Below the pieces are notes generated by a model. It did not search any database. It saw nothing but the letters and a program-made list of their open reading frames with translations, and was not told the DNA's origin. Both the position numbers and the translations under genes were made by a program. Below, piece by piece: positions 169-44,126 of a DNA stretch of 44,212 nucleotides. This stretch comes from Planctomycetales bacterium (GTDB lineage Bacteria > Planctomycetota > Planctomycetia > Pirellulales > Pirellulaceae), in the NCBI GenBank assembly GCA_020426925.1, contig JAGQPC010000355.1:1-44212 (forward strand), given 5' to 3'. Every line of letters begins with the position of its first letter. The first letter of the stretch is position 1.

Positions 169-786
169 GTGAGTCAAAGTTCATCAATTCCGTTTGACAA
201 CTGGCTGATCGAAGCGAGGCGCGGCGACGCGAATCGGCTCGATCATCTATTGGAAGCGTATCGCAATTACTTGCGTTTATTGGCTCGATTGCAGCTAGGC
301 CGCATGTTGCAAATCCGAGTTTCTCCTTCCGATCTGGCTCAAGAATCGATTCTGGTCGCTCGCAAAGCGTTCCATGGATTTCGAGGCGATACCGAACCGG
401 AAATGCTGTCCTGGCTGCGGAGCGTTCTGGCGCAACGTTTGATTGACGCGAATCGCTTCCACTCAGCCGGTCGACGAGATTTTCAAATCGAACATCGGCT
501 CGATGATGCACTCGACCGATCATCCTGCGACATGCGTGCATTCCTATCGCCTGATTCTAACTCGCCAAGTCGAATCGTTTCCAAGCGGGAACAAGAGGTG
601 ATCCTCGCCGACGCGTTGGCTCGACTGCCGGCCGACTATAGCGAAGTGATCGTCCTGCGTCATCTTGACGGAAAATCGTTTGCCCAGGTCGCTGAGACAA
701 TGAATCGCACGGTCCCCAGCGTGAAGAGCATTTGGACTCGCGCGATGACTCGACTGCGAACAGAGCTGGGAGAGGAAATCGGATGA
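169..786 (+). CDS. ECF-type RNA polymerase sigma factor, kinase-linked
   Basis: Probable sigma-70 family ECF sigma factor of 205 residues that redirects RNA polymerase to a small regulon. Region 2 is visible at about residues 25-95 (SDLAQES and FRGDTEPEMLSWLR stretches), and region 4 at about 140-200 ends in a helix-turn-helix (LDGKSFAQVAETMNRTVPSVKS). The start is GTG at 169, preceded by AGAAGGA at 154-160 with good spacing. The stop overlaps the start of the kinase gene as ATGA, which implies translational coupling. Sigma factors of this kind next to Ser/Thr kinases are a recognised planctomycete arrangement, so the kinase is the likely regulator in place of a classical anti-sigma factor. 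That regulatory link is inferred from context. Confidence 0.9.
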   Translation: MSQSSSIPFDNWLIEARRGDANRLDHLLEAYRNYLRLLARLQLGRMLQIRVSPSDLAQESILVARKAFHGFRGDTEPEMLSWLRSVLAQRLIDANRFHSAGRRDFQIEHRLDDALDRSSCDMRAFLSPDSNSPSRIVSKREQEVILADALARLPADYSEVIVLRHLDGKSFAQVAETMNRTVPSVKSIWTRAMTRLRTELGEEIG

Positions 787-3700
787 AGACCAAGCACACA
801 GATGCGATCGCCCGAGACGTGGAATCTCCAGCCGAAGATGAAGCTCGTCTGACTCGCGCGATGGAAGAATACTTGGCGAAACTGGAGGCCGGTGAAGACT
901 TTGACCGTGCGACGTTTCTAGAAAAACACGCGGATCTTGAACCGATGCTTTCTGAAGCGATCGAAAGCATCGATTTTCTGAACGTTTATTCGCACCGTCC
1001 AAGTCAGTTTCCAAAACCCACTCACGATTCGAGTGATTCGGTTCACTCCGAATCTGAAGAGCTGGGCGATTTTCGGCTGGTCCGGGAAATCGGTCGAGGT
1101 GGCATGGGCGTCGTCTACGAAGCAGAACAACGTTCACTTCAAAGGACCGTCGCTATCAAGGTGCTGCCTTTTGCGGCGCTGCTGGACCGCGGTCGATTAG
1201 CGCGATTTCAGAATGAAGCTCGAGCTGCCGCGATGCTTCGACATCCGCACATTGTCGGCGTGTTTTCTGTCGGTTGCGAACGGGGCATCCACTATTACAC
1301 GATGGAGCTGATCGACGGCCAAAGTCTGGCAGAAGTCATCGACCGGTTGCGAAGCGCCCGAGGCGCAGACAACGGCTCGCAAGCGAACTCGAGCGCGGCG
1401 TCCGAAACGGTTCCGATCGCTCGGCTTTCCACAGACTACGCTTCCAATCGCAAATCGTTCTTTCGAGGCGTTGCTCGGCTGGGAATCGAAGCGTGTGACG
1501 CGTTGCAATACGCGCATCAGCGAGGTGTCGTTCACCGCGACATCAAACCTTCGAATTTGTTGCTCGACAACGAGACGCAAGTCCACGTGGCCGATTTCGG
1601 CTTGGCTCGCATCGAAGCTGGTAACGAGCTGACGATGACCGGCGACGTCGTAGGCACGCTGCGTTACATGAGCCCCGAACAACTAGACGGCCGCGTTGTT
1701 GATGAGCGGACTGATGTTTACTCACTGGGCGTGACGCTATACGAGCTTGTGACGGGCAAATTGGCGTTTGATGCCGAGCACCGTCAAGAGCTGACGAAAC
1801 AGATTTTCGAGGCGAATCCGACTCGCCCGTCCAAAATCGAGCCAACGTTGCCGCACGATTTGGAAACAATCGTCATCAAGGCGATCTCCAAAGATCCCAA
1901 TGACCGCTACCGCTCGGCGGAGGAATTCGGAAACGACCTTCGCAGGTTTCTGGATGGGAAGCCAGTGACGGCTCGTAGTCCCAGCCGAGTCGAGTTGACG
2001 CGACGTTGGATCGGCCGCAATCGATTCGTTTCGTCTCTGATGGCGATTGTCGTCGTCTTGTTGTTGGCGTTGTCTGCTGGCAGCACACTCACCGCGATTC
2101 GTCTAGCCAGTGATGCCGAAGACAAACAAGATCGCGCGTACAGCCAAGACTTGCACATGGCCCACGAAGCGGCTCGCAAAGGTGACTTTGTGACGGCAGA
2201 AGAAACGTTGCTCAACTGGATGCCAGAATCAGGCGACGAAGATCGACGGAACTTCGAGTGGTACTACGCCTGGAAGCTGGCTCACAATCCGGCCATTGAA
2301 CGAACGTTTCAGAATCGGTTGACGGTCTACGACGTCGAGTTCCTCCCTGGCGACAAACTGGCAATCGCCCGTTGGTCAGAAGTTCAGCCCATATGGGACC
2401 TGAACCGTGATGCGAAGGCACCTCCAGCAATTCAATTGGAAACGGAAGGCAAGTCGCTGTTGGCGATTCCGGAAGAGAATCTTTTGATTGTCGGTACGCA
2501 CGATGGCGAAATAGAGGAACGGGATGCCCGCACTGGAGAATTGTTGTATCCGCGAGTTCCGCTGGAAATTGCCAATAGCGAAAGGGACTTTTCAGCGCTT
2601 GCCATTAGCCATGATCGTCGATTTATTGCCGTTGGCTCCGGAGTATTTGGGTTCGGTCACACGGGGCACGTTGCAGTTTTCGACCGCAATGAACGTCAAT
2701 GGACATTCGAAACAATTCCATTCGAAAATCCTCCTCGCGTTGCGTTTGGCGCTGATGGTCTCTTGTATGTCGCGGAAAGAAACACGAGCAAACTGTCGGC
2801 AATCGACATTCAGGAAGGACGAACAGTAGAAGATTTCGAACTGCCATTCGACAAGATCAGCGATTTTCGGATTACAAACGATGGTCAACGCGTCGTCGCG
2901 ATCGCTAATCCTCAACATGGCAAATCGGTTGTTGCCCACGTCGTGCTCTGGGATATCGCGCGTCGCAAAGTAATTGCCAGCTCTCCAATCGGCACAATTC
3001 CACTTCGCAGCGTAGCCGTCTCCGGCGACGCTTCCCTGATTGCTGTGGGAGAGAACGAAGGTGTTGTCCGAGTCTTGGACGGAAACGCGTTGAACGTACT
3101 AGCTACTGTTCAGGCTCATTCCGGGGTCGTTAATGATTTGGCGTTCTCCAATGACAGCCTACATCTCGCGACCGCCAGCTCCGATGGTTTCGCTCGTACT
3201 TGGAGCGTAGAAAAACTGACACAAAGCGCGACAGAACAAGTGGCTCTCAAAGAGCCGACGCGATATATGTTTGGCGCCGACTTTCTAACCGACACCGAAG
3301 TTGTTTCGGCCGACAACGATGGACGCTTGATCTTCTGGGACGCAGAAACTGGAGAATCGGAAACGATTTTGCAGTTAGATTACCGAGATACAAATCTACA
3401 TCAGCTCGCCGTTTCGCCAGATCGCGGACTGGTTGCCGTGACGAGCGGTCTGTATCCGCCTAAGAAAACTCCCAGCCTCGTCCATCTGGTCGATGCAAAC
3501 TCGAAAGAGGTGATCTGGGAGAATTCAATTGAGACTGGAATCATGTATTCCATATCGTCATTTTCGCCCGATGGTAGGTTCTTGGCCGTGTCCGCGAAAT
3601 GGCGAGTCCTCATTTACGACGTGGCAAGCGGGCAAGTAGCTCATACAGTCATTAGAGACGGAGCGTGGTTCAAACCCGCAGTGTTCTCACCGGATGGTTC

Positions 3701-3920
3701 GTATCTCGCATGCGGAACGATACGCGGTCAAATCCACCTGCTCCGCTGCTCCGATTTCGCTACGGAACGTGTCATCGACGTAAGAGAAATCATCGACGAT
3801 GCGCAGTTCTCACTAGACAGTCAAACCTTGATAGCCACCGGTATACCATTCTCAACCGAACAGGCATCTTTAGCACAATCGAACCGGTTGGAGAATGGAA
3901 ATCGTTTATCACCGGTTTGA
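783..3920 (+). CDS. Membrane Ser/Thr protein kinase with WD40 domain
   Basis: Eukaryotic-like Ser/Thr kinase of 1045 residues. The Gly-rich loop (IGRGGMG) is at 103-109, the ATP-binding Lys at 126, HRDIK at 251-255 and DFG at 271-273, so the kinase looks active. A membrane helix lies at about 415-440, just after a basic stretch, so the kinase should be cytoplasmic and the rest periplasmic. Degenerate WD40 blades run from about residue 495 to the end (for example AFSNDSLHLATASSDG). I chose ATG 783 because it overlaps the sigma factor stop; the frame is open further up but without support. The last blade breaks off at about nt 3840, and 26 unrelated residues follow before the stop. A better-looking C-terminus lies in another frame (see 3842-4096), so this gene may be frameshifted or rearranged at its 3' end. 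Confidence 0.88.
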   Translation: MKTKHTDAIARDVESPAEDEARLTRAMEEYLAKLEAGEDFDRATFLEKHADLEPMLSEAIESIDFLNVYSHRPSQFPKPTHDSSDSVHSESEELGDFRLVREIGRGGMGVVYEAEQRSLQRTVAIKVLPFAALLDRGRLARFQNEARAAAMLRHPHIVGVFSVGCERGIHYYTMELIDGQSLAEVIDRLRSARGADNGSQANSSAASETVPIARLSTDYASNRKSFFRGVARLGIEACDALQYAHQRGVVHRDIKPSNLLLDNETQVHVADFGLARIEAGNELTMTGDVVGTLRYMSPEQLDGRVVDERTDVYSLGVTLYELVTGKLAFDAEHRQELTKQIFEANPTRPSKIEPTLPHDLETIVIKAISKDPNDRYRSAEEFGNDLRRFLDGKPVTARSPSRVELTRRWIGRNRFVSSLMAIVVVLLLALSAGSTLTAIRLASDAEDKQDRAYSQDLHMAHEAARKGDFVTAEETLLNWMPESGDEDRRNFEWYYAWKLAHNPAIERTFQNRLTVYDVEFLPGDKLAIARWSEVQPIWDLNRDAKAPPAIQLETEGKSLLAIPEENLLIVGTHDGEIEERDARTGELLYPRVPLEIANSERDFSALAISHDRRFIAVGSGVFGFGHTGHVAVFDRNERQWTFETIPFENPPRVAFGADGLLYVAERNTSKLSAIDIQEGRTVEDFELPFDKISDFRITNDGQRVVAIANPQHGKSVVAHVVLWDIARRKVIASSPIGTIPLRSVAVSGDASLIAVGENEGVVRVLDGNALNVLATVQAHSGVVNDLAFSNDSLHLATASSDGFARTWSVEKLTQSATEQVALKEPTRYMFGADFLTDTEVVSADNDGRLIFWDAETGESETILQLDYRDTNLHQLAVSPDRGLVAVTSGLYPPKKTPSLVHLVDANSKEVIWENSIETGIMYSISSFSPDGRFLAVSAKWRVLIYDVASGQVAHTVIRDGAWFKPAVFSPDGSYLACGTIRGQIHLLRCSDFATERVIDVREIIDDAQFSLDSQTLIATGIPFSTEQASLAQSNRLENGNRLSPV

Positions 3921-30765: not shown

Positions 30766-31135
30766 ACTGCATTGCCAGCGTATCAAGTGCAATCGAGACG
30801 CTCGAAACGAAGCCTACGGACGAAGGCACGAAGGCGAAGGCAGCCTTTCCTTTTAACAATTCTTGCGACTCAAGTCTCAATCCTCCAGTCGCTGACCTGG
30901 GCACATTCGTGTGGCTGGTTTTGTTGCTGCTGCCAAGAATTCGATAACGCCGAAATCAGAAGTTGAGTAGTGGGAAATCACAGTAAACAGAGCTGCCAAT
31001 CGCTCCCGACATTGATCGGTATGCTATGGACCTATCCTCGAGGTGCTTTACGCTGGTTACAGTGATAGAATCAAGCCATCTAGCGAGTGAATCTGAATCG
31101 CTAAGGCAATGCTCTCCCTCGGCTGCTCGAAAAAG
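30766..31135. other. Intergenic region before the giant kinase
   Basis: 370 bases without a supported gene. An out-of-frame extension of the phosphatase region reaches 30947 but shows no motif. I see no palindrome, tRNA or clear promoter. Confidence 0.4.
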
Positions 31136-34100
31136 ATGGCGACTGATTTCAACGAAAGTGAACTAGGGCTGGTTGACCGAATCTGTGACGAATTCGAAAG
31201 CCAGTGGACTGCTGACAAACAACCTCGACCAAAACTGGCAGACTTCATTGCGCGCGTGCCTGAAGCTCTGCGTGAACAAGCAGTCAGACGATTGCTAGAA
31301 GTCGATGTCGAGCTTCGACGGAAGGCAGGTGAACAGCCGAAGCGTGACGCCTACTTGGCCGAATTCCCTGCGGACCAGACAATTATCGACAGCGTCATTG
31401 CTGATCACGACACCACACTAGCACCGATTAGGAATGAGCCATCGGACTCGAAGCAGTGGATTGGCAAGTACGAAATAATTCAGGCATTGGGCAAGGGCGG
31501 TCAGGCGGTAACCTACTTGGCTCGCGATCCCGACCTACAACGTAAAGTAGTCATCAAGGAATACCATTCTTGTGTAAGCGAATCGGAACGTGAAGCGGTG
31601 CTCAATGAAGGCCGAGCGCTGGCTCGCGTGAGCAGCAAATACGTTGCCAGCTGCCTGACGGTTGAGCGTATTGGTGATGCGGTCTATCTGGTAATGGAGT
31701 ACATTCGTGGCCAAACTCTGCAAGAGGCTGGCCGAGATCGCAAGCTCGATTTCCACAAGGCAGCGGAGCTGGTTGCTCGAATCGGCGAGGGACTCTACGA
31801 CGTTCACCTGTGCGGATTGATTCATAGGGACATCAAACCGGCCAACATTCTCATTGCACCCGATGGGACGCCTCGAATTGTCGACTTCGGACTGGCCGCG
31901 TCGATGGTGAACGATGATCGGGAACAGATCGGCGGCACCCTGCCGTTTATGGCTCCCGAACAGGCTGTCGGAGATGGTGACCGGATCGATCAACGTACGG
32001 ATATCTTCGGGTTGGGAGCGATTCTGTATTGGCTTACGACTGGGAAGCCACCTTACAGAGCAAGCGGCAAGGAAATCTGGGATCAGGTCAAGAGTGGCAG
32101 CTACGATAAACCGTCTGATCTGAATTCATCCATTCCCGCGAAGCTAGAATCCGTGTGCTTGAAAGCGATGGCTTTCGAACCTACGGCACGATATAGCTCT
32201 GCATTTGAACTGAGCCGAGAACTACGGGAATACTGTGGGCACGATACCTCAGTAACGTCATCGGTCGGTTCAGGTGGGCAGCAGGTACCCGCCGTTCCGC
32301 TAGGCCCAAATCCATATCCTGGCCTCTCCGCATTTACTGTCGACGACGCGAACAATTTCCATGGTCGCCAGACGCAGATCGAACGACTCAGCGCAGCATT
32401 CAGCGAGCTCGTCTCGCCGGCATCCCGGCGCAAGAACGTCCCACGGTTACTGCCTATTCTAGGTCCGTCGGGATCCGGCAAATCGTCGTTGGCTCAAGCG
32501 GGGCTTTTGGCACGTCTCAAGTCCGGAAGCAATGAGGCATATCGGACAATCGTGATGACTCCTGGCAATCATCCTTTGGAATCGATTGCCACTGCGTTTG
32601 CAAAACTCGTCACTGACGACCCTCATCCAATCGGGAAAATCCACGAATTTGAAACTGAGCTGCGTCGCAAAAGCGATAAAGATGCACACGAAGGGCTGCG
32701 ACGAATCGTTTCCTTGATAACGCAATCGAACCCTGCGCCGATTTGCTTGTTGATTGACCAATTTGAGGAAACGTTTTCGCTATGTGAAGACGCCGACGAA
32801 CGACGAGCATTCATAGATGGACTAATCGAGGCCACACAAGATTCACACGGAATACTGAGCGTCATATTCACACTCAGAACCGACTTCATCGGCTATTCCC
32901 AAGACTATAGCGCCTTAAACGCGGCGATCGCGGAGCGTGGCGTCATCGTCCCGGCAATGAATGAGGACGAATTGAGATTGGCAATTGCCCAACCGGCCGA
33001 ATCCGCCGGGTATCTTTTGCCACCAGCAATAATTGATCTCTTGATCTCGCAAACGAAAGGAAGAGAAGGCGCCCTGCCGCTACTGCAGTTTGCCTTAAAC
33101 CAAATCTGGGAGGGACTGTTCAACGGTGACCGCCCCAGCAAGACGCTGAGGCGGATTGGTGGCGTTGGTGGCGCGCTTGCCGGAAAAGCTCAGCTGATCT
33201 ACGATTCCCTCACGGCCCATGAGCAGAAGATTGCCCGGCAAGTTTTTCTGAACTTAGTGCACCTTGGAGAAGGCACAAGAGACACTCGGAGGCGTGCTGA
33301 CGTCTCGAACATCGTCGCTGACGGCGAGTCAGAACAAGATGTCCGCACTGTAGTCAACCAGTTTTCCTCCAGTTCGGCTCGGCTGCTTACTCTGTCCAGC
33401 AGCGACGATGGGTCGAAGACAATAGAAATCACACACGAAGCACTGCTGGACCATTGGTCAACGCTTGGCGAATGGCTAAATGTGTCGCGGGACGATATTC
33501 GCTTGCAGAGACGGCTTGATGACGCTGCTCGACATTGGCGGGCAAGCGGGCGACCTGAAGGGCTACTTTGGCGGTCTCCCGATTTGGATTTGGCTCGGGA
33601 CTTGTCAACTTCAACCAGCGTGCACCTGACGTCGAGGCAACGCGAGTTTTACGATGCTTGTGAGCTGCAAAATCGGCGACGCCATCGCCGAGCGAAACTT
33701 TGGAGAAACGTTGTTGCCGCAACGGCCATAGCGTTTGCACTCTTGACAGCCGGATTAGTCGTGCAGTCGTACAGCCTTCACCAAGAGGGTGTACGCGCCA
33801 GGCAGAATGCGGAACTCGCGGAAAGAGCGCGGGAACAAGCCGAAAGGGCCAACGCAGAGGTTCGAGATTCCCTGGAAGTCGTCGAGCACCAGCGAAACCT
33901 CGCCAGGGAAGCGGGACAGCTTGCAACTGCAAACGCAAAAATCGCCAAGGACCAAACAGCCTTGGCTAACGAGCGGCTCGAAGAAGCCAAGCACGCACAC
34001 TATCGATTGCAGCTCGATCGAGTCCAAGATTTGCTCTCCACCGATCCGTTGCAAGCAATTGATCTTCTTCACGATACGGACGTTTGCCCGGTGGATCGCC

Positions 34101-37100
34101 GGGAATTTATGTGGGGATATCTGGACGCAGCCAGTCGCCGCAATGTAACGCCGCTTTACGGTCACCGTGAATACATATGGGCCGCCGCATACTCACCCGA
34201 CGGTAAGCGTGTCGCTACAGGTGCCGGTGGAATGGACGGTTCGGTGAAGATTTGGAATGCCACAACCGGAGAGCTTGAGCGCACGCTAAGCGCGAATGAG
34301 CAGGGAATCTGGAGCGTGCAGTTCTCGCCAGACGGTAACAGCTTGCTAAGTTGCCACAGCTCGAAACTTCTTTTATGGGACCTCGAAGATGAAACTCGGG
34401 GGCCCGAGCCGCTAGTCACAGACGCGAAACACATCATGAGTGCGAACTTCGCGCCAGATGGCTCGAAGCTTGTCTATGCAACGTTACTCAACGGAATAGT
34501 GGTGTGGGATTGGCCAACACGGACGGTGTCCGAACTAAGCTTGGAGGCTCCCAAGCGAGACGGAAGCGACGTCACCTTGAAGGGAGTCCGCGGCGTGCAG
34601 TTTTCGCCTGATGGTCAATACCTCGGCTGTACGGCACAGGGAATCGTCGTGATCTGGAATGTCGACTCAGGCGACATTGTCGACCAGATCGAAAATAAGA
34701 ATCGAGTTTCTGCGGCCATCGACTTCTCTCCGGACAGTGAACATGTAGCGTTCGCATCAGTTCAGGAACTGACAATCCGCGATTTTGTGAAACAACAAAC
34801 GGTCGGGCGACATCGAGGGCACACACAAGAGATCTACGACTTGGCTTATTCACCGGACGGATCCAAAATCGCGACCACTAGCTTCGACTCCTCGATCAAA
34901 CTGTGGGATATTTCGTCAATCAATCAGTTTGTGAACGTTGGGAAACATACGGGATACGCCTTGGCAATAGCGTTTTCTCCCGACGGAAAACACATTGTTT
35001 CTGGTGGAGCCGACGAAACGGCAAGGATTTGGAGTGTTGATTTCGGCGCCAAGTACGAAATCCCAAACGCAGGATGGCAGTTTCTAATCACGGAAGACTC
35101 CAAACGCTTGCTCACCGTTGGTGGAAACAATCAGCAGATTTGGTCGCTCGCTACGGGAGAGCTACTGCATCGCATGCCAATCGACGTTGCAGTTCGAAAC
35201 GTTATTGATCGCAATCCAAGTGTGATCGCAGTTCCAACCGGGCGAGCATTTGTCGTGAGACAGGCGTTCGATGGCCAGCCCCGCGATGAAGTGCTCGACG
35301 CAAACTTATCGCCTTTCTTGCACGATTTTGGACAAGCACACGTTTTTCCAGACGGCAAACGCGTGCTCGCGATCTCCAATTCCGCAAGTCCTGCGTTAAT
35401 CGATCTGGAAGATGCAACGTTGACGCCAATTCAAACACCAGAGCAAATCTACTGCACATCCGTGTCAGCCGATGGCAAGTTATTTGGGTTGGCCGCATAT
35501 GGCACGTTGCAACTCCACGATGCCGATGGCAATGTGAAGAGTAAAATATCTCCGTCTAGTCGGTTCGTGCCTGTGTCGTTAGCGGTCACACCTGAAAAAG
35601 TTGTCGTGACTAGTAACACTGACCTATTCGCATTCAACGTGAACGAACAGAGCCAACTTGAAGACGGCGGCCGCATCAAGCTGAAATACCGTCCAATCAA
35701 AGTCGTTGTCAGCGAGGACAACGCCTACGCAGTCACAACCAGTACAACAAGGGTTCACGTTTGGAATCTCCAAGATCTGACTGAACAATCGATGGCACGA
35801 TTCAAACTGGTTGACATTGCATCGTCACAAGAAGAGCTGATCGGAGTAACAAAAGACGGCGATGCACTCCGTTGGAAGCAAATCTCCGATCTCAGCAACG
35901 CACCAGAGACAGTGAAATTCGACCATCCAAGCCCGCCAACTGAAGTCGCGCTGTTGCAAAATGGGGAGATTTTGTCGGCCCACTACGACGATGGTTATCA
36001 TCGCTTGTGGAGTACACATGATGGCAGCTTGGTCCTGGCAAATGACATGGCATCAAACCATCGGCGAATGACTATCGCAGCGGGCCTGTCCGGTGAAACC
36101 AGCATTACGGTGGCTTGGGAACCAAAGATCGCCGTCGTTGATGGAACAACATTCGAAACGCAACATGATTTGTATCCTGGGCGTTTTCTCGAGCAAGTAA
36201 GTGTCTCACCGGATGGTAAATTCTTAGCAACGCAAGTCGAAACGGGTGTTGAGCTTTGGGACACGCAGCAGGGCACGCTCCTAGGGACCTTTCACGGCCA
36301 CACGTTTGCGGGCGAGCTGGCGCAAGCGTTTGACGCGAATTGGAGAAAACTCGCGTTGCTCGATCGAACCAAGAAACTCACGCTATGGGACGTAGCTAGT
36401 GCGAAACCCGTTGGTGATCCAATCCCACTTGCAGGAGATCCCTGGTCGCTTTCATACTCGCCCGATGGCAAAACGCTCGCTGTGGCGTGCGCAGATTATA
36501 GCAACGTTTACCTAATCGACGGCGAGACGGGCAAACTGCAAGGTCAGCTCGAAGGACACACTCGAAGTGTTTATGCAGTTCGATTTCGGTCAAATGGCAA
36601 CTTAGTAACAACAAGCGACGATGGTTATGTCCGAATTTGGAATACGCAAAATCGGCAAAGCCTGTTCAGCGTCTTCGTTGACGGCAAAGAACGCCGACAT
36701 TCGGACTTCGAGCTGAACCAAGTCGGATCTTGGCCGACAACTGGACCACTGTTCTTTTCCGCGAAGGGTCAGTTCATGGGCCAACAAGGAAGTTCATCCA
36801 CGGTCCGCATTTGGGATCTCGACTCCCGCCAGCTGCTAGGAATGATCAACGATGGCGGGCGATTTGGCACGGTGGTACTCGGCCAGTTTTCTCCAGACAG
36901 TTCAGCGATAGCATTGCTGCACGAAAGCGGTCGAATCACGCTTTGGAGCTTCGACAAACTTCAGCTTGTGGCTACGATCACCCCTCCCGCAAACCACGCC
37001 GTTAGAAACCTCAAATTCAGTCACGACGGAAGGACTCTACTAACCACGCATTCAAGTCAGGTCTCGCTGTGGGACACACTAACAGGTCGCCAATGGAAAT

Positions 37101-38764
37101 CTTTCGAAACAAAGCAGACCGCATCAGCAGCTTTTTCACCAAATGAGGAACGCTTGGTGATTAGCCACTACGATGGCAGTATCACAGTTATTGGAGCATC
37201 ACCGCGCACGACTTCGTCCGTCGCGGCCACTCGTTCGGACGGAGTCACGGCCTTGACGTTCACACGCGATGGCAAAAACGTAATCACAGGAAATGAACAT
37301 GGGATGATGGCGATCCAGAACGCTACGACAGGCGAAGTTGTGCGGTCGTTTCGTGGGCACGAAGGAGCCGTTCGAGACGTCGCAGTCTCGGCCGATGGAG
37401 TCTTCCTCGCATCCGTGGGTGACGACCAGACATGCCGAATCTGGGACATCCAAACGTGTGCGTTAGTCCATACTTTCGATGACTTCTCGTCGAAAGTCAC
37501 GAGCGTCTGCTTTACTCCTGATGGAAATAGCATCGCAATAGCAAGATACCTACAAGCCAACCTACTTAGCCTCGATACGCATCAAGAAGTCCGAGAATTC
37601 AAACAAGCGAGCCTGACATTCGATGTCGCAATTAGTCCATCCGGGACGCACGCGGCACTAGCATCGACTGTCGAAACCGTGGATGTGGCGGATATATCGC
37701 CAAATTCACTTTACACACAACGTCTCGTCGGACACGAAAATGGAGTGCTTGCCGTCAAGTACTCACACAATGGAAAACATTTAGCAACAGCAAGTGCAGA
37801 CAAAAGTGTACGCCTTTGGGATACAGCAACGGGAAGCGAAGCCATAGTGCTGCTCGGTCACGATGACTGGGTCCGCGATGTCGACTTTCACCCGAACGAC
37901 CAAGTTATTGCGTCTGTTGGCGAAGACGGGAAATTGATTCTGTGGAATGGCAATACGGGACAAATCGAAGCAAATATCGACGCACACGCTGGAACGATTT
38001 GGAAAGTTGAATTCTCGCCGGACGGAAAGTTGCTGGCATCTTGCGGACGCGATGGCATGACACGGATTTGGGATGTTAAATCGAAAACTGAAAGGCTTGC
38101 CTTGGCTGGAGTAGGCGACAGTGGCAGTCAAGATGTACTTGGCGGCCTTGACCTTTCAATTGAATCGAAAGCACTGACAATCGTGACAGATCTATTCGAG
38201 GCCAAGGGTCACCGCAGTGCAGTATTGCAGGCGATTAATGCAGACGAGTCGTTGTCTCCCGCTCTTCGCTCGCGCTGCATTTTGCTCGCCCACCGCCGGC
38301 GATCGCTCGCAGACGGGAGAACATCGTCACAATCCGCGCCGGCGGCATACGCAACCATCGCATCACGTTTGAACAAAGACATCTGGGAGAAAGTACGAGA
38401 ACCAGGCTCGGAACCAACTGACGAAGAACTCAATCGGATGCGATCAATCTGCAAACAACTCCCGAAAGGAATGTACTTCAATACGCTGGGCACCGCAGAA
38501 TTCCGAGCCGGAAACTATCAAGCAGCAATTGAAGCTGCCAACGTCTCTGTATCCAAAACACCTGCTGAGCTAAACCTCGACTCTCCTCATCCTGGCGACA
38601 TTGCAATCCTTGCTATGAGCCATTTGAAGCTTGGAAATCTCAAAGACGCCAAGCAATACCGCGATCAATTCCAAGAGTTGATGAAGCAAGACAATTGGCA
38701 ATCTGACAAAGAATGCACCTCATTTCAAAATGAAGTTACAGCAATGTTCGGCGACGCGCAGTAA
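31136..38764 (+). CDS. Giant Ser/Thr kinase-STAND NTPase-WD40 receptor
   Basis: A 2542-residue multidomain signalling protein. In order: a planctomycete kinase lead domain (about 1-105); a Ser/Thr kinase with Gly-rich loop at 119-122, Lys-141, HRDIK at 230-234 and DFG at 250-252, all intact; an nSTAND1-like NTPase from about 395 (NPYPGLSAF, then GPSGSGKSS Walker A at 443-451 and LLIDQFEE Walker B at about 538-545); one membrane helix at about 858-880 preceded by a basic stretch; a coiled coil at about 884-955; roughly thirty WD40-like blades from about 1009 to 2315; and a helical TPR-like end. By the positive-inside rule the kinase and NTPase are cytoplasmic and the WD40 part periplasmic. An ATG at 31109 would add nine residues; neither start has a good ribosome site. 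Confidence 0.9.
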   Translation: MATDFNESELGLVDRICDEFESQWTADKQPRPKLADFIARVPEALREQAVRRLLEVDVELRRKAGEQPKRDAYLAEFPADQTIIDSVIADHDTTLAPIRNEPSDSKQWIGKYEIIQALGKGGQAVTYLARDPDLQRKVVIKEYHSCVSESEREAVLNEGRALARVSSKYVASCLTVERIGDAVYLVMEYIRGQTLQEAGRDRKLDFHKAAELVARIGEGLYDVHLCGLIHRDIKPANILIAPDGTPRIVDFGLAASMVNDDREQIGGTLPFMAPEQAVGDGDRIDQRTDIFGLGAILYWLTTGKPPYRASGKEIWDQVKSGSYDKPSDLNSSIPAKLESVCLKAMAFEPTARYSSAFELSRELREYCGHDTSVTSSVGSGGQQVPAVPLGPNPYPGLSAFTVDDANNFHGRQTQIERLSAAFSELVSPASRRKNVPRLLPILGPSGSGKSSLAQAGLLARLKSGSNEAYRTIVMTPGNHPLESIATAFAKLVTDDPHPIGKIHEFETELRRKSDKDAHEGLRRIVSLITQSNPAPICLLIDQFEETFSLCEDADERRAFIDGLIEATQDSHGILSVIFTLRTDFIGYSQDYSALNAAIAERGVIVPAMNEDELRLAIAQPAESAGYLLPPAIIDLLISQTKGREGALPLLQFALNQIWEGLFNGDRPSKTLRRIGGVGGALAGKAQLIYDSLTAHEQKIARQVFLNLVHLGEGTRDTRRRADVSNIVADGESEQDVRTVVNQFSSSSARLLTLSSSDDGSKTIEITHEALLDHWSTLGEWLNVSRDDIRLQRRLDDAARHWRASGRPEGLLWRSPDLDLARDLSTSTSVHLTSRQREFYDACELQNRRRHRRAKLWRNVVAATAIAFALLTAGLVVQSYSLHQEGVRARQNAELAERAREQAERANAEVRDSLEVVEHQRNLAREAGQLATANAKIAKDQTALANERLEEAKHAHYRLQLDRVQDLLSTDPLQAIDLLHDTDVCPVDRREFMWGYLDAASRRNVTPLYGHREYIWAAAYSPDGKRVATGAGGMDGSVKIWNATTGELERTLSANEQGIWSVQFSPDGNSLLSCHSSKLLLWDLEDETRGPEPLVTDAKHIMSANFAPDGSKLVYATLLNGIVVWDWPTRTVSELSLEAPKRDGSDVTLKGVRGVQFSPDGQYLGCTAQGIVVIWNVDSGDIVDQIENKNRVSAAIDFSPDSEHVAFASVQELTIRDFVKQQTVGRHRGHTQEIYDLAYSPDGSKIATTSFDSSIKLWDISSINQFVNVGKHTGYALAIAFSPDGKHIVSGGADETARIWSVDFGAKYEIPNAGWQFLITEDSKRLLTVGGNNQQIWSLATGELLHRMPIDVAVRNVIDRNPSVIAVPTGRAFVVRQAFDGQPRDEVLDANLSPFLHDFGQAHVFPDGKRVLAISNSASPALIDLEDATLTPIQTPEQIYCTSVSADGKLFGLAAYGTLQLHDADGNVKSKISPSSRFVPVSLAVTPEKVVVTSNTDLFAFNVNEQSQLEDGGRIKLKYRPIKVVVSEDNAYAVTTSTTRVHVWNLQDLTEQSMARFKLVDIASSQEELIGVTKDGDALRWKQISDLSNAPETVKFDHPSPPTEVALLQNGEILSAHYDDGYHRLWSTHDGSLVLANDMASNHRRMTIAAGLSGETSITVAWEPKIAVVDGTTFETQHDLYPGRFLEQVSVSPDGKFLATQVETGVELWDTQQGTLLGTFHGHTFAGELAQAFDANWRKLALLDRTKKLTLWDVASAKPVGDPIPLAGDPWSLSYSPDGKTLAVACADYSNVYLIDGETGKLQGQLEGHTRSVYAVRFRSNGNLVTTSDDGYVRIWNTQNRQSLFSVFVDGKERRHSDFELNQVGSWPTTGPLFFSAKGQFMGQQGSSSTVRIWDLDSRQLLGMINDGGRFGTVVLGQFSPDSSAIALLHESGRITLWSFDKLQLVATITPPANHAVRNLKFSHDGRTLLTTHSSQVSLWDTLTGRQWKSFETKQTASAAFSPNEERLVISHYDGSITVIGASPRTTSSVAATRSDGVTALTFTRDGKNVITGNEHGMMAIQNATTGEVVRSFRGHEGAVRDVAVSADGVFLASVGDDQTCRIWDIQTCALVHTFDDFSSKVTSVCFTPDGNSIAIARYLQANLLSLDTHQEVREFKQASLTFDVAISPSGTHAALASTVETVDVADISPNSLYTQRLVGHENGVLAVKYSHNGKHLATASADKSVRLWDTATGSEAIVLLGHDDWVRDVDFHPNDQVIASVGEDGKLILWNGNTGQIEANIDAHAGTIWKVEFSPDGKLLASCGRDGMTRIWDVKSKTERLALAGVGDSGSQDVLGGLDLSIESKALTIVTDLFEAKGHRSAVLQAINADESLSPALRSRCILLAHRRRSLADGRTSSQSAPAAYATIASRLNKDIWEKVREPGSEPTDEELNRMRSICKQLPKGMYFNTLGTAEFRAGNYQAAIEAANVSVSKTPAELNLDSPHPGDIAILAMSHLKLGNLKDAKQYRDQFQELMKQDNWQSDKECTSFQNEVTAMFGDAQ

Positions 38765-38982: not shown

Positions 38983-41900
38983 ATGCCGCGTCAACGACAC
39001 AGAACGTTCGAATCGCTAGAAACGCGCCGATTGCTTGCAGTCGTCGATCTGGAACTTGGCAGGAATAGTTACTTCCCCCTTGCGACGCCTGTAACCGTTC
39101 GGCAGGAAAACTTCAACGATTCAGACTCAATGGAAAATGTCTTCCGTTTTTCCGCTGAACCGGGCGAGGTGATTTCTGCGGCGATCAATAGGTTTTCCGC
39201 CAAGACAACTTCGGCACTGGCAAGCATCGTCGATCCAACGGGCAACATACTTGTCTCTGCGCCGCTCGATCGCGAAGTCCTCCTTGAACAAATCACAACA
39301 ACTTCCGGTGTCCACGAAATCATCGTAAAAGACCTTTCGGGCTCCGGTAGGCTAGAATTCGCACGAAATGCATTTCACGAAAGTCCATCGAACAAGAACT
39401 CACCATCAGAAGCACAGACCATCGATGTACATAGTGGAGTCCCTGTTTTCGGGTTCGTCGATTCAAATGCAGTCGACTGGTTCGAATTCGCGCTGGCCGA
39501 TGGCGAACACGTTTCCGTTACGGTCGCCGGTAGCCGGCGGAATCCAGAGTTTGCGATCTACGACACGGATGGCGCGACGCGCCTTGCGAATTCACGCCAT
39601 GCGCCCCGACAAAGTGATAACGACGCAACATTTACCATCGCGAACTTCATTGATTTAACAACGGACGGAACTCTGAATACATATTTCGTCGCGATCGAAA
39701 CACCTGGCCAATACGCACTGCGATTTGACGCTGGAACAGTCGAGCATCCCGAAACGTTGCGGTCGAGCGGTCCCCATCGATTTCATGCAGCGGAAGACAC
39801 ACCGGTGCAAATCACTATCGACCAAACGCTGCCAGTCGAGTTCGTTCCGGTCGAAGTTCGAATCTTCGACGGACTCGGTGAAGAAGTAGAGTCGCATCAA
39901 ATCGAAGAAAACCAAACCGTCATGTTCAATCCACAATCGACGGGCGAATACACCATTTTGTTACGGCAGCAGAGTGACACATACTATCGACTGCAGATTT
40001 CGGGCGACTCGCAACTTCCTTTTGGCGCAGCGGATGAACAATCGGATCTTGGCTTCGTTCGACCTGGGACGCAGATCCCGATCGAGTTTACTCAGACGCT
40101 CCGTCATCCGATCGGCACATCATTCGTCGATGGCGAACCAGTTGAACTGCAGGCAGACGGCCTGTTTGCCATGCTGACGATCCCGGCACTCGAAGATGGT
40201 GAACATACTCTTGTGATTCCTTCGGGAACAGTTGCGGCCGTCGATGGAACTCTGAACAACGAAATCGTCCGCACGTTCAGTATCGACAGTGTCGCTCCCA
40301 CTCTCACGCTTCGGGGCATTGCTGCAGGCGATGTTCTTCCAATCGGTACACATACGTTTGAACTGAAATATGACGAACCGGTCGCGACTCCGTTTTACGA
40401 GATTAGACAAGTGTCCAATCAGCAGCTCGTACGTGGTACGGTCCGCCAAATCGTTGACGAAAGCACGATTCATGTAGCAGTCCCATTTACGTCTGAGGGC
40501 GAATACAAATTCACTGTCGGAGCAGCTACCGACGCAGCAGGAAACGAGTCCGAATTCGCAGCGCCGGTGTTTGCCGTCGACAAGCCTGAAGATCCGATGC
40601 CAATCCCGTTTTCACGGACGGGTCTCGATGGTGCACTTACGTTCGACGCTTCATCAGCTGGATACTTGCACTCCCCTGACGACGTCGACTCCGAATACAT
40701 CGACCTACTCGCAGGCCATACGATTTCCGTGCGTTATTCGGTTACTGCAACAAACGGCCCGACGCAATTGCGGCTACGTAAACAAGACGCTCCAGCAACG
40801 ACCGTCGAATTTCACACTACCGAAACCGACGAAACACACGCAGTTCACAATATTAACATCATCGAATCAGGGCGATACTTCGTCGAGGTATCAGGCGACG
40901 GACCTGCCGAATACGACATCGACATCACAGTCGATCTCATCGATGTTAGTAATGTCTTTCCGCTGACCAAAGAAACTGCGTTCGCACTCGATGATTTGCT
41001 AAACCAGAAAAGCGGCCTCGCATCTTTGACAAGCGTACTTCCGGACTCTGAGGAATCCAAATCGTCACATTGGTTTAAGTTCACGGCAGACGCAGAAGAA
41101 CTGATTTCGATCGTCGCGAGCGATGTGACGCTTGGCCACGTGGTACTCGAAGTTCTCGATGCAGACGGCAACGTTCTGGACGTTGGGGTACCACAGAACA
41201 TCTGGAACGGAGCACTCGCCGAGTTCATCGCACCTGACGCAAAAGAGTATGTCATTCGAGTGACCGGCAAGAACACTCCATTCAATCTTGTGGTTGCTCG
41301 AAAACGACGTTTTGAATCGAGCACCGAATATGCCGTGGGCCTGCGCGAAGGCACGAGCATCATGGGCAGTCTAGGGCAACTGCAGCCTGGCCGCCTGTTT
41401 GCTGGGGCAACCACGATTTATGAAACGTATCCGACTTCGAACGAAGCGTGGCCGGTCCTCAATGAATTTCCGTCCGCCTACAGTTATGTGATCGATGCCG
41501 GACTGGCCGCGACTCCCTATTCACTATTGCTGAGCGTCACTGGAGTCGACGGAATCCTAGAATACGAAATGCAAACAGGCCAACTCATTCGGAGAATTGC
41601 CACGCCAGTTGGATACAAGGCACCAGCATTTGCTGACGGAAAGATCTATGGATTAGACAGGCCTCACATCGACATCATCGATTATGTCACGGGCAGTCGG
41701 GAGCGTAGCGTAGAATTGCTGCAAGACGTTGATGACGGACTCACGATATCCAACGGACAGCTATACGTAGGGACAGGCTTTGGCAATATGGGAAGAATCG
41801 ACCTCGGCACAGGAGAAATCGAAGAACTCGTCCCAGGAGAATTAATAAAGTTCATTAGCGACATCGATGGCCTAACAACCTTCGACGGAGATTTTGTTGC

Positions 41901-43320
41901 GGTTGACGGAGTGGTCGCAAATCGTTCGTCCACGCGTCTAGACCCACAGCGATTGAATGGCATTCCATTCGTCGAACATGAAGGCGTAGCTAGTACTGGG
42001 GGCTTGGACAGCAGCTCCGCGCAACATCGTGCCGAGTTGCGTGCGGGCAACGCGTACTCGTTGCATATCGCTATCCCAAACAGCGTCCCGCCGCTTCTCC
42101 AGACGCTAAACGCTAACGCAACAATTCTGGCGCCAAACGGAGACGTTGTTACTCAAGGAGAATTGCGAACCGGCGAGCTAACGCTAAACTTCGATGCCGC
42201 GTTGTCTGGCGAATACACAATTCAGATCGAAGCCGTGAACGACACGTCTGGCGAATACGAACTGCGTTTAGACGGTGCCATTTCCAGCCCTGCGTTCCGC
42301 GCGGATCTAATCGATGATGGTACCGTGCGAAGTCCCATCGAACTCGACCATGATCGCGTCATCATCAAATTCAACGAACCGATCGACGCGACATCGCTAT
42401 CGGCCAGCGATTTGCAAGTCAACGATTCGCCTGCGTCGGAGGTTCAAGTCCTGTCGCCGAACGTCGTCGAATTTACGTTCGAGCTGACGGACGCAGCAGA
42501 ATACACTATCGCATTGGCCGAAGGCAGCGTAATAAGCTCCCTGGGAATCCCGATTCAACCGTTCAGTGCTACTGTCAACCTCGATCATGTTGCACCTACG
42601 ATCGTAACGACAGTGTCAGATCCTGAATTTGACATTGCGGCGAGGACTGCGAGATTCGAATTCCAATTCTCCGAGATCGTTAAGGCAACTTCGTCTCGAG
42701 TTGGACTGTACACCGACGGGAATTTCACGTTTCCAGAGGTGACGATTATCGATCAGGGCGCAACGCAAATCATGCTGGTTCCTGTTCCGACCGAGGGAAC
42801 CATTGAACTAGAAATCTACGGGAACATGTGGGTTGACGCTGCCGGCAACCAATCCGACGTTGACAACGATAGCGTGGCTGGCGGGACTCGGCGCATTGCT
42901 ATTACTGGCGATGTGAATCGAGACACCGTTGTCAACGCAGACGACGTCGACGCGATTTGTGCAGCGATTCGATCCGCCAATCGCGATCAGCGATTCGATG
43001 TGAATGGCGACAGTGCCGTCAATCAAGAAGACTTCGACATGATGATCTATGACGTTTTGAAGACCGGGCCGGGCGACGCCAGCTTGGACGGTGTGTTCGA
43101 TTCATCGGATCTTGTGTTCGTTTTCCAACAAGCCAAATACGAAGACGGAATCACGGACAACGCCACTTGGGCGGACGGAGATTGGAACTGCGATGGAGAA
43201 TTCGACAGTCGCGATTTTGTCACGGCTTTCCAACAAGGAAATTACGTTCGATCGGCTCGACAAGCTCAGATCGTTCGTACGCAAATCGCCTTCGACTACG
43301 ACGACGAGCGGCTACGGTAA
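38983..43320 (+). CDS. Giant secreted protein with dockerin-like end
   Basis: A 1445-residue extracellular protein. It starts with the planctomycete export signature (FESLETRRLLA at about residues 8-18) in place of a classical signal peptide. The body has several beta-sandwich-type segments: PPC-like repeats (HEIIVKDLSGSGRLEF, SGRYFVEVSGDGPAEYDI, SGEYTIQIEAVNDTSGEYEL) and Ig-like parts (SIDSVAPTLTL, VNLDHVAPTIV). A propeller-like stretch lies near 880-960 (QLYVGTGFGNMGRIDLGTGEI). The C-terminus at about 1307-1430 carries paired dockerin-type calcium loops (GDVNRDTVVNADDVD, DVNGDSAVNQEDFD, GDWNCDGEFDSRDF). Function is likely adhesion or binding at the cell surface. It lies 218 bases after the giant kinase gene. 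Confidence 0.85.
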   Translation: MPRQRHRTFESLETRRLLAVVDLELGRNSYFPLATPVTVRQENFNDSDSMENVFRFSAEPGEVISAAINRFSAKTTSALASIVDPTGNILVSAPLDREVLLEQITTTSGVHEIIVKDLSGSGRLEFARNAFHESPSNKNSPSEAQTIDVHSGVPVFGFVDSNAVDWFEFALADGEHVSVTVAGSRRNPEFAIYDTDGATRLANSRHAPRQSDNDATFTIANFIDLTTDGTLNTYFVAIETPGQYALRFDAGTVEHPETLRSSGPHRFHAAEDTPVQITIDQTLPVEFVPVEVRIFDGLGEEVESHQIEENQTVMFNPQSTGEYTILLRQQSDTYYRLQISGDSQLPFGAADEQSDLGFVRPGTQIPIEFTQTLRHPIGTSFVDGEPVELQADGLFAMLTIPALEDGEHTLVIPSGTVAAVDGTLNNEIVRTFSIDSVAPTLTLRGIAAGDVLPIGTHTFELKYDEPVATPFYEIRQVSNQQLVRGTVRQIVDESTIHVAVPFTSEGEYKFTVGAATDAAGNESEFAAPVFAVDKPEDPMPIPFSRTGLDGALTFDASSAGYLHSPDDVDSEYIDLLAGHTISVRYSVTATNGPTQLRLRKQDAPATTVEFHTTETDETHAVHNINIIESGRYFVEVSGDGPAEYDIDITVDLIDVSNVFPLTKETAFALDDLLNQKSGLASLTSVLPDSEESKSSHWFKFTADAEELISIVASDVTLGHVVLEVLDADGNVLDVGVPQNIWNGALAEFIAPDAKEYVIRVTGKNTPFNLVVARKRRFESSTEYAVGLREGTSIMGSLGQLQPGRLFAGATTIYETYPTSNEAWPVLNEFPSAYSYVIDAGLAATPYSLLLSVTGVDGILEYEMQTGQLIRRIATPVGYKAPAFADGKIYGLDRPHIDIIDYVTGSRERSVELLQDVDDGLTISNGQLYVGTGFGNMGRIDLGTGEIEELVPGELIKFISDIDGLTTFDGDFVAVDGVVANRSSTRLDPQRLNGIPFVEHEGVASTGGLDSSSAQHRAELRAGNAYSLHIAIPNSVPPLLQTLNANATILAPNGDVVTQGELRTGELTLNFDAALSGEYTIQIEAVNDTSGEYELRLDGAISSPAFRADLIDDGTVRSPIELDHDRVIIKFNEPIDATSLSASDLQVNDSPASEVQVLSPNVVEFTFELTDAAEYTIALAEGSVISSLGIPIQPFSATVNLDHVAPTIVTTVSDPEFDIAARTARFEFQFSEIVKATSSRVGLYTDGNFTFPEVTIIDQGATQIMLVPVPTEGTIELEIYGNMWVDAAGNQSDVDNDSVAGGTRRIAITGDVNRDTVVNADDVDAICAAIRSANRDQRFDVNGDSAVNQEDFDMMIYDVLKTGPGDASLDGVFDSSDLVFVFQQAKYEDGITDNATWADGDWNCDGEFDSRDFVTAFQQGNYVRSARQAQIVRTQIAFDYDDERLR

Positions 43321-43409: not shown

Positions 43410-44126
43410 ATGGCTACCGAAATCACTTCCTCCGTCCCGTCGGCCGATACAGCAATCAGCTCTGTGCCGTCTCTGCAAAACGGCGATCGGATGACGCAAG
43501 CCGAGTTTCTGCGTCGCTATAATGCGATGCCTCACGTCCAACATGCGGAATTGGTTGAAGGACGAGTTTACATGCCATCTCCCGTTTCAGCCGTAAGACA
43601 CGGCGAACCTCATTTTGACCTGAACGGATTACTGTTTTGCTACCGAGCCATGACACCGGGCGTTTTGGGTGGTGACAACTCAACGTTGAAACTCGACACC
43701 GACAATGCACCTCAGCCGGACGGGTATTTGAGAATCGCAGAAGAAGTTGGAGGCCAATCAAAAGTCGTCAACGGCTTCATTGAAGGAGCACCAGAACTGA
43801 TTCTCGAAATCGCAGCAAGCAGCGTCAGCTACGACCTGCATGAAAAACGAAACGCCTATCGTCGCAACGGAGTGCAAGAATACGTGGTCTTGCGGACAGA
43901 AGATTCAGCCATCGACTGGTTCGTGCTTGCCGACGGAGAGTACAAGCCGCTGCCACTCGACGACGACAACATCTACCGCAGCCGTGTATTTCCCGGGTTA
44001 TGGCTTGATGTTGCCGCAACTCTGAAGGGCGATGCAAAACAAGCTCTGGATGTGTTGCACCAAGGCATCGGCCACGAATCGCACCAGGCATTTGCCAGCT
44101 CGATGAAGCCAATAAACGCTCAGTAA
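43410..44126 (+). CDS. Uma2-family (DUF820) PD-(D/E)XK-like protein
   Basis: A 238-residue soluble protein of the Uma2 family, predicted restriction-endonuclease-like fold of unknown biological role. Family marks are MTQAEFLRRY, HAELVEGRVYMPSPVS, the PDG of QPDGYLRI, the ELILEIAASS strand with the catalytic-type Glu, and DLHEKRNAYRRNGVQEYVVL. The core Asp and Glu positions look intact. The extra 25 N-terminal residues are Ser/Thr-rich and not typical. No toxin, antitoxin or transposase gene is adjacent in what remains of the window. Confidence 0.9.
   Translation: MATEITSSVPSADTAISSVPSLQNGDRMTQAEFLRRYNAMPHVQHAELVEGRVYMPSPVSAVRHGEPHFDLNGLLFCYRAMTPGVLGGDNSTLKLDTDNAPQPDGYLRIAEEVGGQSKVVNGFIEGAPELILEIAASSVSYDLHEKRNAYRRNGVQEYVVLRTEDSAIDWFVLADGEYKPLPLDDDNIYRSRVFPGLWLDVAATLKGDAKQALDVLHQGIGHESHQAFASSMKPINAQ

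Follow-up and report, generated by a model that had tools for sequence, protein, structure and literature searches.

A planctomycete protein joining a Hanks-type kinase, an nSTAND1 NTPase, and a predicted extracytoplasmic WD40 array

Domain organization and genomic setting

The window analyzed here is a 44,212-nt stretch (positions 1–44,212, forward strand) of contig JAGQPC010000355.1 of a Planctomycetales bacterium. It contains an uninterrupted reading frame (31109..38764, +) for a protein of 2551 amino acids, in which a Ser/Thr kinase, an nSTAND1 NTPase, a hydrophobic helix, a coiled coil, WD40 repeats, and a TPR-like end follow one another, confirming the overall observation of a first-pass annotation of this DNA. 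That annotation placed the start at 31136, which is the in-frame M10; its residue numbers are therefore 9 lower, and its K141, K449, and 858–880 correspond to K150, K458, and 867–889 in the numbering used here. The Pfam matches for kinase, NTPase, and WD40 were all well above chance expectation.

The N-terminal leader (aa 1–120; 31109..31468, +) matched no Pfam family. It is of the type found ahead of planctomycete kinases, and alignments with the best planctomycete kinase relatives start within it, at approximately query residue 10–25. The Hanks-type kinase domain follows (aa 121–363; 31469..32197, +; Pfam Pkinase, E 3.6e-40). The catalytic Lys and the HRDxKxxN, DFG, and APE motifs are all present as VVIK (K150), HRDIKPAN (239; D241), DFG (259; D259), and APE (282), and the glycine loop reads GKGGQA; the kinase is intact, as had been claimed. 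A Foldseek search with the kinase model gave PknB/Stk1 (4eqm) as the best match.

The nSTAND1 NTPase with its winged-helix part (aa 402–817; 32312..33559, +) scored 349.9 bits against Pfam PF20703 (cut-off 27.1) and covered profile positions 1–378 of 379. Walker A (GPSGSGKS, G452–S459) contains K458, so the earlier claim of an intact P-loop also held, and Walker B is DQFEE (D550-Q-x-E-E). The remaining motif residues are R590, P657 in GALPLL, and H776, taken by analogy with other STAND proteins to be the sensor Arg, the GxP motif, and the winged-helix His, respectively. The motif columns were invariant or almost so in an alignment of 10 relatives. Searching the NTPase sequence against the PDB returned nothing beyond P-loop noise. 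Structure prediction by domain, which had been proposed as a check, folded both domains confidently: an AlphaFold model of residues 106–1005 (26 sequences) had a mean pLDDT of 82.9, with kinase and NTPase mostly >85.

WD40 and other propeller models from Pfam were numerous from about residue 1018 to 2371. An iterated profile made from the protein's own blades found 25 of them over 1021–2327, and the undetected gaps could hold about 5–6 more, giving ~30 in total. By spacing, the array consists of a seven-bladed first propeller (aa 1021–1316; 34169..35056, +), two less regular middle propellers with gaps and partly degenerate blades (aa 1330–2027; 35096..37189, +), and a fourth in which 6 blades were found in 7 slots (aa 2045–2327; 37241..38089, +). 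AlphaFold modeled residues 1330–2529 with confident beta blades at roughly 1690–2330 (propeller 4 pLDDT mostly 75–97) and poorly at about 1360–1690 and elsewhere. The Foldseek matches to this model were proteins with several propellers; full-length Apaf-1 (3sfz) ranked 16th. The pTM values of the two AlphaFold models, 0.57 and 0.42, are too low for the relative placement of domains to be read from them. At the C terminus, a tentative TPR-like helical end (aa about 2454–2525; 38468..38683, +) is suggested by low-confidence helices and a sub-threshold TPR_2 match (E 9.5e-5, 22.7 bits, cut-off 27), and the tail searched alone gave only weak TPR matches. On the sensor side of the first-pass annotation, the coiled coil and the WD40 array stood, and the TPR-like end is weakly supported. 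No FGE-sulfatase sensor was found among the best 25 of 59 Pfam matches, where the C-terminal part gave WD40/propeller families only, and the protein has no sensor domain of known specificity. Fungal NLRs carry homogenized, fast-changing WD40 sensors. Homogenized or hypervariable repeats were ruled out here: the WD40-coding DNA has direct repeats of 33–35 nt only and no tandem repeats.

According to the ORF list the gene stands by itself, separated by 343 bases from 30765 upstream and by 218 bases from 38983 downstream, although a 184-aa frame upstream extends to 30947. Promoter and terminator scans gave matches no better than chance level. The neighbors are transport, cofactor, and sugar genes, including, upstream, a nucleotidyltransferase with a GlmU-like end, a HAD hydrolase, an ammonium transporter, and a porin; a DUF1559 protein is also part of the gene content and, together with the kinase leaders, points to Planctomycetota. 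The downstream frame (38983–43320, +) encodes 1445 aa with pre-peptidase C-terminal (PPC), Ig-like, and type I dockerin matches, the last of interest outside cellulosome bacteria. Next to it lies a Uma2-family putative endonuclease (43410–44126, +; PF05685), also matched by the PADLOC candidate PDC-S03. A second kinase-WD40 protein (732–3920, +; 1062 aa) is encoded 27 kb upstream, with Pkinase at 115–394, a WD40 part at about 540–1035, and no NTPase detected. In the host genome (9.15 Mb; completeness 82.7%, contamination 6.2%) there are 152 Pkinase matches and about 120 frames that bear a kinase, many of them long.

Predicted membrane topology

The protein has one hydrophobic segment consistent with a transmembrane helix (aa 867–889; 33707..33775, +), with a Kyte-Doolittle peak of 2.16 compared with 1.11 for the next separate peak, and hydropathy gave no second helix that would return the chain anywhere in the 2551 aa. 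Its N-terminal flank is basic (RRRHRRAKLWR), with 7 K/R in the preceding 15 residues versus 2 after, so that the N-in/C-out orientation predicted in the first-pass annotation was supported along with the helix itself. The helix is followed by a putative coiled-coil stalk (aa 890–985; 33776..34063, +) that matched no Pfam family; AlphaFold models the membrane segment as helical and continues with a long helix over residues 896–978 (pLDDT about 50–70). The WD40 part is accordingly predicted to lie outside the cytoplasm.

An nSTAND1 alignment was used to search genome contigs, with one genome per species, and at least 80 loci were recovered; those listed come from Cyanobacteriota, Chloroflexota, Actinomycetota, Planctomycetota, Myxococcota, and others. 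A helix lies shortly after the NTPase in 78 of the 83 ORFs listed (at a median of 50 residues from it), and among these 78 there are 75 with more K/R on the N-terminal side of the helix (mean 5.3 versus 2.4). The position is kept even though the sequence at that place is not conserved. By these counts, a predicted placement of the sensor and the switch on opposite sides of the membrane is the rule in the family. A sensor beyond the membrane, which had been presented as unusual, is instead the predicted norm for nSTAND1, and periplasmic WD40 had already been predicted for planctomycete kinases (PMC11032199). A cyanobacterial member of the window's NTPase clade (L083:9641–12382, +) ends in pentapeptide repeats, lacks a transmembrane helix, and is apparently soluble.

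Single-span planctomycete kinases with WD40 and FGE domains predicted in the periplasm have been described (PMC11032199), and a 2017 paper reported kinases associated with WD40 in both Planctomycetes and Cyanobacteria (PMC5587647). Our protein resembles the STK-WD40/TPR class of Planctomycetota in phylum, inside kinase, single helix, and long, predicted-periplasmic WD40 array beyond the helix. It differs in having nSTAND1, the main text of PMC11032199 mentioning neither NTPase nor AAA, and its 25 detected blades compare with 19 Pfam domains in the longest WD40 array described there, from Uabimicrobium.

Relatives, effector exchange, and origin of the fusion

The NTPase-helix core is found with different N-terminal effectors. 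A kinase precedes the NTPase in 27 of the 83 ORFs listed, mostly in Chloroflexota and mostly with a TM-WD40 tail; 15 have caspase-like leaders, 4 have TIR, and 37 matched no probe (HTH-like regions in actinobacteria, short leaders). Pfam confirmed both kinase and nSTAND1 in all four kinase-bearing ORFs submitted to it, and the HRD, DFG, and Walker motifs are retained in most or all kinase-nSTAND1 ORFs checked (n = 28). By sequence resemblance, the leaders of planctomycete relatives from this family and the wider phylum are TIR, caspase-like, or DUF4062-type. The full kinase-nSTAND1-TM-WD40 arrangement is shared by many Chloroflexota and by one planctomycete of the same family (L198:4733–10041, −); in the latter the WD40 part is divided between two overlapping frames, by assembly error or a real frameshift. 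At E 1e-60, 3 other genomes of the 241 in the family were positive; in a phylum-wide search few candidates were scored per genome, which makes absence there weak evidence.

In the NTPase trees, the window sequence falls in a fully supported clade with L198 (genome G538), which bears a kinase, L052 (genome G024), and sequences from Nostoc (L082), Pseudanabaenaceae (L083), and Spirulina (L084). A kinase is missing in four of the six members, and the cyanobacterial neighbors suggest that the NTPase moved between phyla. The kinase tree places the Chloroflexota kinases fused to nSTAND1 in a separate clade (100*) and the window kinase among planctomycete kinases from proteins built differently, the two nearest belonging to a kinase-TM-TPR/CHAT and a kinase-TM-TPR protein. 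The hypothesis that every kinase-nSTAND1 fusion goes back to one event was rejected (AU p 8e-29 against one clade, for a kinase-bearing group picked after an earlier tree had been seen), and the L198 kinase is only 32% identical to that of the window. On these sequence comparisons, kinases have been joined to the nSTAND1 core repeatedly, in agreement with the conclusion that similar kinase architectures, including the kinase-WD40/TPR type, may have several origins and arose repeatedly (PMC11032199). Four Myxococcota proteins of about 1000 aa (L124, L138, L145, and L148; kinase-nSTAND1-TM) with no WD40 repeats detected sit on a long branch of their own and represent a third independent joining of a kinase, here with a different tail.

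In the window's own planctomycete family, the kinase-STAND-TM core also bears an FGE-type sensor. The host genome encodes two kinase-nSTAND1-FGE proteins (L162:4324–8841 and L165:3134–7936), and three proteins of 1900–2050 aa from the same family (L201–L203) are kinase-nSTAND1-TM-FGE, with the helix between NTPase and FGE. The C-terminal FGE-sulfatase domain of all five is C-type-lectin-like, and L203 additionally carries a laminin-G-like domain.

PMC8195603 (2021) names nSTAND1 and gives S/T/Y-kinases as one effector type of STAND-FGE proteins. The nSTAND1/NACHT-FGS counter-invader proteins of that paper share the effector-STAND-sensor order with ours, a kinase being one named effector, and the host genome holds the kinase-nSTAND1-FGE form of the class. 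The window protein differs in that its sensor is WD40, not FGE, and no DGR or EAD partner gene was seen; its helix between switch and sensor is a feature not discussed in the PMC8195603 passage on the class. With WD40 in place of FGE, it would work like these proteins yet is not filed with them.

The Chloroflexota kinase-nSTAND1-TM-WD40 proteins (L085, L089, L096, and others, from Anaerolineae and elsewhere) have the same domain order and predicted topology, but their kinases and NTPases lie in other clades, so the fusion is independent. APAF-1 and related NLRs share the order of N-terminal effector part, STAND NTPase, and WD40 propeller sensor; unlike the window protein, they have an AP-ATPase (NB-ARC), are cytosolic, and use a CARD adaptor in place of a kinase. 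PknB-type receptor kinases, source of the best fold match, share the cytosolic Hanks kinase, single helix, and external sensor but sense through PASTA domains and lack an NTPase ahead of the helix. The exact four-part combination is not named in the literature examined, although many sequences carry it. Because many other bacteria share this design, the protein is not a new system, contrary to its first description as a candidate for an undescribed one, and kinase effectors already appear in PMC8195603. It is a further, large example of a widespread class in which an effector and nSTAND1 are followed by a transmembrane helix and a repeat or lectin-like sensor.

The general point about the family is the more useful one. 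A helix after nSTAND1 with a positive-inside bias, across phyla and effector types, means that such NLR-like proteins should be treated as candidate outside-in receptors and not assumed to be cytosolic. Kinases have joined the core repeatedly and independently, which suggests that activation by proximity makes them a natural output for a STAND switch.

Proposed mode of action and alternatives

We consider the protein to be most likely a receptor kinase of the inner membrane, with one span and a STAND switch, that works from the outside in. General environmental or cell-surface signaling ranks first as its role, with a function in immunity or cell death as a possibility. By analogy with STAND proteins (PMC7159879) and Hanks-type receptor kinases, the partner bound by the WD40 tower and helical end outside the cytoplasm would be a ligand or a protein of the envelope or of a neighboring cell, and the coiled-coil stalk and helix would relay binding to nSTAND1 on the inner face. 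The NTPase would then swap ADP for ATP and oligomerize, gathering the kinase domains for trans-autophosphorylation and phosphorylation of cytosolic targets. Phosphorylation, the output first proposed, is accepted as likely. In favor of the receptor reading, planctomycete kinases were recovered in Triton/SDS fractions in Tuwongella (PMC8567305). The poorly modeled middle third of the WD40 array counts against the receptor reading, as does the fact that eukaryotic WD40 domains are mostly cytosolic scaffolds.

The gene had also been put forward as a candidate defense system. No defense island was seen at the window gene or beside its homologues; apart from Uma2, two genes away, no defense genes adjoin it, and no defense system recurs among the 104 genes neighboring kinase-nSTAND1 homologues, where a few genes matched defense models, most of them generic ones (ABC ATPases and a single kinase). 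Of the 33 PADLOC matches, the best 25 all map to the kinase domain or begin within it, and most are generic; the identities PD-T4-6, mad6, and MkoA were rejected as generic kinase matches, and the partner genes that a PADLOC system has beside its specific match are absent. The first-pass annotation had set housekeeping contexts with dead active sites against its own reading: the contexts do look ordinary, but the active sites are intact. A defense role is possible but unsupported, the possibility coming from the TIR and caspase-like effectors on the same core and from the counter-invader prediction in PMC8195603.

It is rather unlikely, in our judgment, that the WD40 tower detects phage or an attacking neighbor and that STAND assembly directs the kinase toward growth arrest or death, as proposed for the conflict systems predicted by Kaur, Aravind, and co-workers. 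TIR and caspase-like domains, which occupy the same effector slot, are typical suicide effectors, and the distribution within the family is patchy. STAND-FGE proteins with kinases, predicted to be counter-invader systems (PMC8195603), occur in the host genome and its relatives. Against this, the PADLOC matches reflect kinase domains in general, the surroundings are the ordinary genes described above, nothing recurs beside homologues, and the absence of DNA tandem repeats gives no sign of fungal-NLR-like sensors. A wider proposal seems to us similarly unlikely: that nSTAND1 proteins are mainly transmembrane STAND receptors, with the NLR-type switch beneath the membrane, the sensor on its outer side, and a freely exchanged inner output (kinase, caspase-like, TIR, or HTH-like), and that the window protein is a receptor kinase/NLR hybrid surveying the outside for attackers.

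We give little credence to a constitutive membrane scaffold, in which the tower would hold envelope proteins and the kinase and NTPase would localize or turn over the complex without switching: WD40 proteins are mainly scaffolds and the many kinases in long frames point to a lineage-wide expansion, but a passive scaffold needs neither the nucleotide-binding nor most of the catalytic residues that are conserved across phyla. Less probable still is a membrane-attached APAF1-like protein with cytosolic WD40 and a hydrophobic segment that is not a simple span, for although soluble APAF1 shares the NTPase-then-WD40 order (PMC7159879), 3sfz is among the fold matches, and L083 lacks a helix, the conserved helix position and charge bias of the family and the single span argue against it.

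For the receptor kinase that we favor, no conserved partner gene was found among the same 104 neighboring genes. The commonest family there was FHA, with 4 ORFs in 3 loci, all Chloroflexota (L088, L096 with two, and L126). FHA domains read phosphothreonine, and their presence beside these three homologues fits the expectation for Ser/Thr kinase signaling; it is possible that they act as phospho-readers of the kinase-nSTAND1 protein.
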